From: a virus
Direction: 5' to 3' (one strand)
DNA: 64,000 nt
Virus record (IMG/VR): IMGVR_UViG_3300050120_000230
Coordinates: 86,325-150,324 of that record
Each line of letters starts with the position of its first letter. Within the stretch, counting starts at the first letter, position 1. Below the pieces are notes generated by a model that worked only from the letters and a program-made list of their open reading frames with translations, made no database searches and was not told where the DNA came from. Both the position numbers and the translations under genes were made by a program. Below are positions 25,537-27,669 of this stretch, one piece after another.

Positions 25537-25544
25537 TATTTATA
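25537..25544 (-). promoter_or_regulatory. Late promoter TATAAATA (perfect)
   Basis: The exact T4 late octamer on the minus strand, just beyond the tmRNA terminator. Confidence 0.75.
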
Positions 25545-25550
25545 CAGGAG

Positions 25551-25582
25551 GAAAAAGAGTGGAGGGGAGCCGAAGCTCCCCC
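25551..25582 (-). terminator. Terminator of tmRNA gene
   Basis: GGGGAGC-TTCG-GCTCCCC on the minus strand followed by CTTTTTCC. Ends the tmRNA precursor. Confidence 0.8.
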
Positions 25583-25844
25583 TTGGGTAATAAGGACACC
25601 ATCTCTGCCCTCAAAGGAGTTACGCGGCGAGCGCGTAGTCCATGCTAACGTTGTCGTTGGCATTTAGAAATGTGAACTGATTGGCGGTCGTTTCTTACCG
25701 GGATTCTCGCAAACCTTTTACCGTCGCCAATCGAAAGCTGTTCGCCCCCGCACTTCCCGGTGACAACGCCGGAGAAAGATTGGTGGAGGCGCGGGGATTC
25801 GCACCCCGGTCTTGCCGACTTATTCTGATGTGGTCATCAAATCC
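25562..25844 (-). ncRNA. ssrA: Circularly permuted two-piece tmRNA
   Basis: A full set of tmRNA landmarks in permuted order on the minus strand. The acceptor piece comes first: a T-arm CGGGG-TGCGAAT-CCCCG (25808-25792), acceptor strand CGCCTCC (25791-25785), then A and an encoded CCA (25783-25781). A spacer of 31 bases (25780-25750) follows. The coding piece starts GGGGGCG at 25749, pairing with CGCCTCC over 7 bp with a G3-U70 wobble, the alanyl-tRNA synthetase identity element. Next come a TTTCGA D-loop analogue and a P2 strand TTGGCGAC facing GTCGGCAA of the acceptor piece (one mismatch). The tag frame (25661-25620) reads ANDNVSMDYALAA and then TAA. A late promoter and a terminator bound the gene. 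The role is rescue of stalled ribosomes and tagging of the nascent protein. Confidence 0.93.
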
Positions 25845-25849
25845 AAGGC

Positions 25850-25857
25850 TATTTAGC
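25850..25857 (-). promoter_or_regulatory. Late promoter GCTAAATA of tmRNA
   Basis: Minus-strand late element. The predicted start, about 25844, lies at the beginning of the acceptor piece. Confidence 0.65.
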
Positions 25858-25864
25858 GATTTTT

Positions 25865-26104
25865 CTAGGGATAAGTCAAGCGATCTTCATCGCGGATGTG
25901 TGGATGTTTTTCCAACTCCACCAGAAGTTCGAAGATTTGTAGAACGACAAGCAGGCCATCCTTTGATCCGTCGTCGTATTGCCATTTCTTGTAGATGATC
26001 TCGCGCAGCGGATTGAGTATTTTCGCCGAAGCGTTAAGGCGGTGAAATTCGGCCTCGTCCTTGAACCCGTGACGTTGGACCATTTCTTCAATTCGATTTC
26101 TCAT
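25865..26104 (-). CDS. Unknown small protein, 79 aa, coupled to serS
   Basis: A charged, mostly helical protein of no recognised family. Its ATG overlaps the stop of the seryl-tRNA synthetase gene by 4 bases, so translation is probably coupled. It lies between the synthetase and the tmRNA gene. Confidence 0.5.
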
Positions 26105-27618
26105 AGTTTCTTCTTCTTAAAGATTTCGACCAGTCCATCGACGAAATCTTCCAAACGCCCTTCGTCAGAATACCCGCCGCACATGTTCGGCCCGTCAATC
26201 GCGTAGATCGCTTTCGCTTCCGGCGGATTCAGTTCGACCCGTTCCTCAATGCCAGCCGCTTCAAGCTTCGCGTTGAGGCGTTCGATGAATGCGTTCCGCT
26301 CGGCCGCCTCATCACCGCCAATGAGCCATCGGTCATCTCGATTCGCCGTTGGGCTGTTCATATAAGGACGAAGCGCCTCGGGGATGAGAATTGAGCCATC
26401 TTCCCGTTGGTAGGTTTCAAGGATAGCCACCAGCGCGCGCCCGACGGCCACGCCAGACCCGTTGAAGGTGTGGATGAACTTAGTGCCTTTGGTTTCCCCA
26501 GCCGGGCGATAGCGAGCGTTCATGCGGCGAGCTTGGAAATCGCCGCAGTAGGAAATGCTCGAAATCTCGCGGAAGGCATTCTGGCCGGGTAGCCACACTT
26601 CGATGTCGTAGGTTTTGGAGGCCGAGAACCCCATGTCCCCGACCGACAGAAGCATGACGCGATAGTGCAACCCCAGCGCCTTCAGCATGTGCTCGACACT
26701 GCCGAGCATTCGCTCGTGTTCCATTTCGTGAAGAGCCACTTCCTCGGACACGAGTGAGACGAGTTCGACCTTGTTGAACTGATGCTGCCGGATCATCCCT
26801 CGCGTGTCGCGCCCGGCCGAACCCGCTTCCGCACGGAAGCAGGGCGTCAGGGCACAATAGCGCCCGAGTTCACCCCAGTGTAGCACGCTGTCGCGCACCA
26901 TGTTCGTCAGGGACACTTCCGCCGTTGGGATCAGATAGCGGCCGTCCGTTGTCTTGAAGAGGTCTTCTTCGAACTTGGGAAGCTGCCCGGTGCCGAACAT
27001 CGACTCTTCGCGGACCAACAGCGGCGGCGCCACTTCGGTGTATCCGTTATTTTCCGTGTGGAAATCGAGCATGAATTGCCCGAGCGCACGTTCTAGCCGG
27101 GCCATTTTCCCTTTCAGGAAAACGAAGCGCGCGCCAGACACCTTGGCTCCGGTCTCGAAATCCATGCCGAGGGGTTCACCGAGATCGAAGTGTTCTTTCG
27201 GTGTGAAAGAAAACGACGGTTTCACACCTTCACGGCGAATCTCAATGTTGTGATCCGCGTCGGGTCCGAGTGGCACGCCCTTCATTGGCAAGTTCGGCAG
27301 GCGAGACAGATGGTGCATCACGACTCGATGGTCTTCTTCTACCTGCGGGGTGAGTTTTTCGATGTCGGCTTTGACGGTGACCATCTCGGCCTTCAACGCC
27401 TCCACGATCTCCATGGCGGCCTTGTCGCGCATCAACTGCCCGATCTCACCGGAGATCGCATTGCGACGCTGCTGAGCCTTCTCAAGAGCCTGTAGACCGT
27501 TCCTGTGCCGGGCATCCGCCATCAGCAACAGCTTGATGAGCGTTGGGCTTTCCAAGCGATAGTGCAGGCGGGAAATAACCTCGCCTTGATTCTCGCGGAT
27601 ATAATTCAGGTCAAGCAT
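26101..27618 (-). CDS. serS: Seryl-tRNA synthetase
   Basis: A 505-residue class II aminoacyl-tRNA synthetase that charges tRNA-Ser with serine. The N-terminal antiparallel coiled-coil arm (about 30-110) is present. Motif 2 ([20 protein letters not shown]) is at 261-280, followed by FNKVELVS; motif 3 ([15 protein letters not shown]) lies near 390. The catalytic core ends about residue 425. A further 80 residues form an extension not usual in bacterial SerRS, containing a [18 protein letters not shown] helix. The ATG at 27618 has GGA upstream. It looks intact and active. Confidence 0.92.
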
Positions 27619-27669
27619 CAAATGTCCTCGTCGCCATATCCATAATCAATAACATGCTTCGAGCATCGA

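Follow-up and report, generated by a model that had tools for sequence, protein, structure and literature searches.

Organization of the locus

The window analysed here, 64,000 nucleotides in length, sits in a 415,409-base virus record. Rfam covariance models, together with reading of the sequence, located a permuted tmRNA gene on its minus strand (25844-25620). The general permuted model (RF04321, tmRNA_permuted) was matched over its full length (model positions 1-213 of 213), with 123.2 bits and an E value of 1.3e-23 (cut-off 47), and the alphaproteobacterial model (RF01849, alpha_tmRNA) gave 83.2 bits at the locus (cut-off 50). A preliminary description of this DNA had recognized a permuted tmRNA and had suggested a covariance-model check; the matches to both models, each above its cut-off, support that identification. 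A permissive-threshold Rfam scan of the window revealed nothing else of note. ARAGORN, the other program suggested, gave a divided answer: no gene was reported at the locus with default settings, whereas a relaxed score (-ps50) returned the permuted gene with the tag ANDNVSMDYALAA, plus one spurious overlapping reading.

On the minus strand, the tRNA-like 3′ part with its CCA comes first, followed by the spacer, the tRNA-like 5′ part and the tag frame. This acceptor-first order, previously likened to that of the alphaproteobacterial permuted gene, holds on reading of the sequence, and the -ps50 call is likewise permuted. The features of the locus, all on the minus strand, are:

26101..27621 (-), seryl-tRNA synthetase (SerRS) gene, upstream and in the same direction (TIGR00414, 465 bits)
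25865..26104 (-), 79-aa open reading frame between SerRS and the tmRNA (no Pfam or PHROG match)
25781..25844 (-), acceptor piece (RF04321 alignment, sequence, compensatory changes in relatives)
25844-25840 (-), outer P2 5′ strand GGATT, acceptor piece
25819-25812 (-), inner P2 5′ strand GTCGGCAA, acceptor piece
25808-25792 (-), T-arm CGGGG-TGCGAAT-CCCCG, acceptor piece
25791-25785 (-), acceptor 3′ strand CGCCTCC, followed by A73
25783-25781 (-), encoded CCA (sequence)
25780-25750 (-), 31-nt spacer between the two pieces, with predicted removal during maturation (sequence)
25620..25749 (-), coding piece over its modelled extent, with a putative 3′ end (sequence and Rfam alignments)
25749-25743 (-), acceptor 5′ strand GGGGGCG, 7 bp with CGCCTCC including G3-U70
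25730-25723 (-), inner P2 3′ strand TTGGCGAC, coding piece
25705-25701 (-), outer P2 3′ strand AATCC, coding piece
25661-25620 (-), tag frame GCC..GCG TAA, encoding ANDNVSMDYALAA (sequence and ARAGORN -ps50)
25563..25582 (-), intrinsic-terminator hairpin GGGGGAGC-TTCG-GCTCCCCT, with a T-rich tail to about 25550

Re-reading of the minus strand reproduced the acceptor strand, the A, the CCA, the 31-base spacer and the 7-bp GGGGGCG pairing with its G3-U70 wobble as they had been described, and the tag frame with its stop codon was recovered both from the sequence and by ARAGORN. The 7-bp acceptor stem, with G3-U70 and A73, carries alanine identity. GCTTTCGATTGG comes after GGGGGCG on the minus strand and before the P2 3′ strand. 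The P2 helix, which had been called near-perfect, is present, but its inner part (25819-25812 with 25730-25723) forms 7 of 8 pairs, the remaining position being a G.G mismatch. The single-sequence fold of the region was unremarkable (z -0.73), as is expected for an RNA that is pseudoknotted and made of two pieces, and the spacer folds into a weak hairpin (-9.1 kcal/mol, z -1.5).

The RF01849 alignment stops at model position 270 of 355, just past the tag stop codon, leaving the 3′ region of the coding piece unmatched by the alphaproteobacterial model; this region also lies outside the general permuted model. The same alignment is full length in a sister phage (contig IMGVR_UViG_3300009177_000052, L123) and in two further relatives, L104 and G049 (a 578-kb phage). 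Since the alignment ends after the tag, the coding piece may have a reduced 3′ part.

SerRS lies upstream of the tmRNA in three phages (this one, the sister and G049), and a MazG-like gene is also found upstream in the same direction. SerRS and the tmRNA have in common that both are translation genes; serine charging was considered on account of the neighbour and rejected, the acceptor bearing the alanine identity pair. The TIGR00414 alignment reaches residue 421 of the 506-aa SerRS protein; the roughly 80 aa beyond it form a C-terminal extension, most of which is retained in the sister (alignment 2-498). The 79-aa reading frame is absent from the sister, whose SerRS ends about 44 nt ahead of the tmRNA match. 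A search upstream of the gene for a sigma-70-type promoter found none. The earlier boundary at 25562 takes in the downstream terminator (25582-25563), which is not part of the tmRNA. An equivalent hairpin and T run are present in the sister; terminator-like sites in the region showed no excess over shuffles.

Beyond the terminator lies a 609-aa open reading frame of an uncharacterised phage family (phrog_8578). TATAAATA at 25537-25544 was considered as a T4 late promoter and set aside, as it is the sole copy in the window and the sister has ACTAAATA. A leader of about 100 nt (25531-25431, minus strand) precedes the gene at 25430-23601 and is nearly identical in the sister (151 of 164 positions, gene start included). 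Its predicted hairpin, CGAAAGGAGTCCCCTTTCG, would mask the ribosome-binding site of that gene, making translational control possible.

PHROG matches in the record include a tail sheath, a T4-type terminase, a UvsX-like recombinase and a gp32-like single-stranded DNA-binding protein, and 49 tRNA matches were counted. The terminase is nearest to those of Sinorhizobium phage Phosso (58% identical) and Agrobacterium phage Atu_ph07 (56%), and an alphaproteobacterial host is therefore likely. The earlier label of a T4-type phage fits the gene content, but by its terminase the phage reads as a jumbo myophage of T4-like make-up and not, strictly speaking, as a T4 relative. Neither SmpB (PF01668) nor an alanyl-tRNA synthetase (AlaRS) was found in the record, which is linear and possibly incomplete.

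Covariation and relatives of the phage tmRNA

The acceptor stem, T-stem and inner P2 were compared in five sequences (this phage, the sister, G049, L104 and phage phiCbK). In this set 97.9% of cells were paired, compared with 44-54% when the partners were slid by 1-3 columns, a percentage that is partly circular because the structure was written from the same sequences. The stronger point is that two-sided changes were observed in 5 of the 19 pairs; the covariation score was reached by none of 500 shuffles. A second alignment, which included the Phosso acceptor, revealed changes on both sides in 6 of 20 pairs, and the U-G pair of the acceptor was retained in all relatives compared. Compensatory changes in related phages, which had been named earlier as bearing on the identification, were seen in the acceptor, T-stem and P2.

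The sister carries its tmRNA at the same place, beside a SerRS that is 77% identical. Without the spacer (71 nt in the sister, 31 nt here), the tmRNA parts of the two phages are 88% identical. The sister tag, ANDNVDMAAYALAA, retains the reading frame with one additional in-frame codon, and the frame is preserved among the close relatives despite differing codons. In G049 the tmRNA follows a SerRS that is 56% identical, and the tag is ANDNVAMDYAVAA. The spacer ends are strongly complementary in the sister (z -4.9) and in phiCbK (z -3.8).

Relationships were judged from pairwise scores and not from a tree, which cores of about 190 nt would not resolve. Scores within the group formed by this phage, the sister and L104 were 100-147, and the best score against 90 sampled bacterial tmRNAs was 57. 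The group stands well apart from these bacterial genes, indicating on sequence grounds that the phage did not recently acquire this tmRNA from a host. A search for the element GGGGGCGANNAGCTTTCGATTGGC found it in no bacterial genome; it occurred only in the sister contig and in one contig of 221,828 bases. The alphaproteobacterial permuted tmRNA (RF01849/RF04321; the two-piece ssrA of Caulobacter) shares with the phage gene the gene order, the G3-U70 acceptor, the encoded CCA and an ANDN... tag ending in Ala-Ala. The gene described here differs in being phage-borne, in the end of its RF01849 alignment past the tag, in the D-region/P2 sequence (GCTTTCGATTGGC against the alphaproteobacterial consensus AGGATCGAC), and in having no close bacterial relative among the 90 parsed.

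Tag, Clp proteins and proposed function

Tags were parsed from 80 virus loci, some of which repeat the same gene, and from 90 bacterial loci. The ending ALAA was found in 61 of the 80 virus tags and in 27 of the 90 bacterial tags, and AVAA, which had been taken as the usual alphaproteobacterial type of ending, was just one among several bacterial endings. The E. coli tag ends in YALAA, and the Ala-Ala-COO- terminus is the main determinant for ClpXP (PMC7652416). These observations run counter to the earlier proposal that the tag could direct proteins to a different protease fate; ordinary degradation by ClpXP or ClpAP is predicted.

The 415-kb record also encodes three Clp proteins, outside the window and in genes that are not neighbours. 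ClpP (199 aa; C1:406512-407051, L144:1465-2064) begins at the mature N-terminus, can be aligned over its whole length with E. coli ClpP, including the Ser-His-Asp positions, and scored 306 bits with NF001368 (cut-off 249) and 289 bits, below the cut-off of 308.6, with TIGR00493. ClpX (439 aa; L146:1144-2463) scored 539 bits with NF003745 (cut-off 359), and a ClpA-like ATPase (754 aa; L145:1207-3471) scored 884 bits with TIGR02639, below its cut-off of 993. The structure of E. coli ClpX identified six tag-contacting residues (PMC7652416). Two of these six are altered in the phage ClpX: the pore-1 Tyr/Val and pore-2 Thr/Val are retained, and RKH has become KRT, with substitutions at Arg228 and His230. 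The loop reads RKN in Phosso and Atu_ph07 and RKH in phage G, Lak and an ‘Acinetobacter phage’ record; a changed or shortened RKH loop was observed in many further virus sequences. A link between the loop change and the presence of tmRNA failed, since phages with intact and with altered RKH both have tmRNA.

The gene very probably encodes a functional permuted tmRNA that would be processed and charged by the host, act with host SmpB and tag proteins for Clp proteases. Directly observed are the gene order, the helices with their compensatory changes, the tag frame, the conserved neighbourhood and the lack of detectable SmpB or AlaRS. For transcription, cleavage, charging, tagging and degradation we infer the following course, in which the steps beyond a single precursor draw on established knowledge of tmRNA. 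One precursor containing acceptor piece, spacer and coding piece would be transcribed and would end at the downstream terminator. Host tRNA-processing enzymes would remove the spacer, with RNase P cutting at GGGGGCG and an RNase at the CCA; in the sister and phiCbK, the complementary spacer ends would lengthen the acceptor stem and expose both cleavage sites. The two resulting RNAs would be joined through the acceptor stem and P2, and host alanyl-tRNA synthetase would charge the molecule via G3-U70 and A73. Together with host SmpB, it would enter stalled ribosomes, add A-ANDNVSMDYALAA to the nascent protein and free the ribosomes. The reliance on host proteins is suggested by the lack of SmpB and AlaRS in the record. 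ClpXP/ClpAP-type proteases, whether from the host, from the phage or from both, would then degrade the tagged protein. In the course of an infection, ribosomes would thereby stay available and fragments would be cleared while host mRNA is broken down.

Two other readings deny the gene a role in tagging. A tmRNA-like RNA might serve as a decoy that competes for host SmpB, AlaRS or ribosomes and dampens quality control. A precedent exists in E. coli, where the cell's own tmRNA is inhibited by a tag-less, tRNA-like form from mycobacteriophage DS6A (PMC11915505). The absence of SmpB from the phage record and the less model-like 3′ part of the coding piece would suit such a role, but a decoy has no need of a tag frame, whereas the resume codon, the stop and the Ala-Ala end are preserved in all close relatives though the bases differ, and the extra codon of the sister is in-frame; the decoy is accordingly considered improbable. 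That the gene is a decaying, functionless passenger derived from host ssrA, for example as an integration leftover, is more improbable still. Phages are known to retain fragments of ssrA after imprecise excision (a point taken up in PMC9004378), but this gene is complete and has no close bacterial counterpart, its place beside SerRS is conserved in three phages amid a large T4-like structural gene set, and the compensatory changes by themselves already make decay unlikely.

The preferred reading, a functional tmRNA, leaves a choice as to which proteases act on its products. The phage might run the pathway largely by itself, its tmRNA tagging proteins and its own ClpX, ClpA and ClpP degrading them, so that only SmpB and AlaRS would be borrowed. 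Encoding of ClpP, ClpX and a ClpA-like ATPase in the same record as the tmRNA is in keeping with this, as is the report of one tmRNA and six Clp open reading frames in the Sinorhizobium jumbo phage AP-J-162 (PMC11242549, in its available part), where no link between the two is drawn. Among 25 virus records with a ClpX relative, 18 contained a permuted tmRNA above cut-off and 4 contained SmpB; these records were picked by ClpX similarity without a matched control of ClpX-free large phages, so that the counts are a lead and not an association test, and the co-occurrence may reflect genome size. Against a dedicated pathway, Atu_ph07 has ClpP and ClpX without a tmRNA, phages Domovoi and Gurke have a tmRNA without ClpP, the tmRNA and clp genes are not adjacent, and KRT in place of RKH in ClpX could mean that other degrons are read. 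A phage-run pathway is possible but less likely than not, and is worth pursuing. The wider proposal, that alphaproteobacterial jumbo phages have a largely self-supplied pathway of tmRNA, loop-altered ClpX, ClpA-like ATPase, ClpP and sometimes SmpB, is put forward only tentatively. If it is true, phage proteases, and not those of the host alone, would decide the fate of tagged proteins during infection. The co-occurrence with ClpX and ClpP raises the question of whether phages gain ribosome rescue alone or also take over the degradation of tagged proteins.

Permuted tmRNAs in other phages

The permuted form had been thought uncommon in a T4-type phage. Published counts indicate otherwise: 53 two-piece tmRNAs were counted in phage genomes in 2021, including those of methylophage Melnitz and of pelagiphages (PMC9004378), and the tmRNA database paper that introduced RF04321 has 79 phage entries when every form of tmRNA is included (PMC11915505). 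A pattern scan of IMG/VR returned at least 47 records, among them some short contigs that may derive from a host genome or the edge of a prophage; RF04321 exceeded its cut-off in 41 of the 48 virus records tested (40 of these 47, plus the sister). Phage isolates were also found to carry the gene. With the present locus, a jumbo-phage lineage gains a well-supported permuted tmRNA, phage two-piece tmRNAs being already known.

The two-piece tmRNAs of Melnitz and the pelagimyophages are of the alphaproteobacterial type (PMC9004378), as is the one described here. Melnitz, a T4-like myophage from the sea whose hosts are OM43 bacteria, has a glutamine riboswitch, whereas the present phage is a jumbo myophage with a SerRS neighbour, and the Rfam scan of its window detected no riboswitch. 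Phosso (PV764938), a jumbo myophage related by its terminase, has a permuted tmRNA (PV764938.1, 349596-350198; L134:1501-2103) with the tag ANDNVSTKVALAA, together with ClpP and ClpX. It differs in its acceptor sequence and in a spacer of about 400 nt with internal inverted repeats, and no SerRS was found in the Phosso region searched. This spacer holds an inverted copy of each end that flanks it, 24 nt at 92% for the 3′ end of the acceptor piece and 20 nt at 100% for the 5′ end of the coding piece, and these copies could base-pair with the ends of the mature RNAs.

The occurrence of tmRNA and of SmpB in huge phages was noted earlier (PMC7162821); in the main text of two huge-phage surveys, including that one, Clp is unmentioned. 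Here, permuted tmRNA and SmpB were observed together in four large virus records, G050 (IMGVR_UViG_3300034072_000758), G070, G068 and G060. In G070 some 140 nt separate SmpB and the tmRNA, and G050 contains tmRNA, SmpB, ClpX and ClpP. Some records deposited as phage contain bacterial-looking DNA, namely Acinetobacter phage MD-2021a (CAKLQH020000002.1), where serS has cysG and lolA as neighbours, and the OR84xxxx ‘phage’ records, which are unverified wastewater clones; matches to such records are therefore not evidence of phage genes.

Permuted tmRNA genes are missed both by default ARAGORN and by deposited annotations, as in phiCbK, Phosso, Domovoi and Gurke, whose genes are unannotated in their records. 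A Brevundimonas paper (PMC10070969) reported finding no tmRNA. The genes of the Dolichocephalovirinae phages phiCbK (71 bits; L002:1475-1793), Domovoi (60 bits; L136) and Gurke (58 bits; L137) exceed the cut-off of the permuted model, as in the present phage, and phiCbK also shares the GCTTTCGATTGGC element. These phages form a separate lineage with lower scores and other tag bodies. Caulobacter is where two-piece tmRNA was worked out, and phiCbK infects Caulobacter, so that a well-established laboratory host is at hand for examining what a phage copy does. In Domovoi and Gurke, an annotated tRNA-Cys lies about 75-110 bases beyond the tmRNA match.
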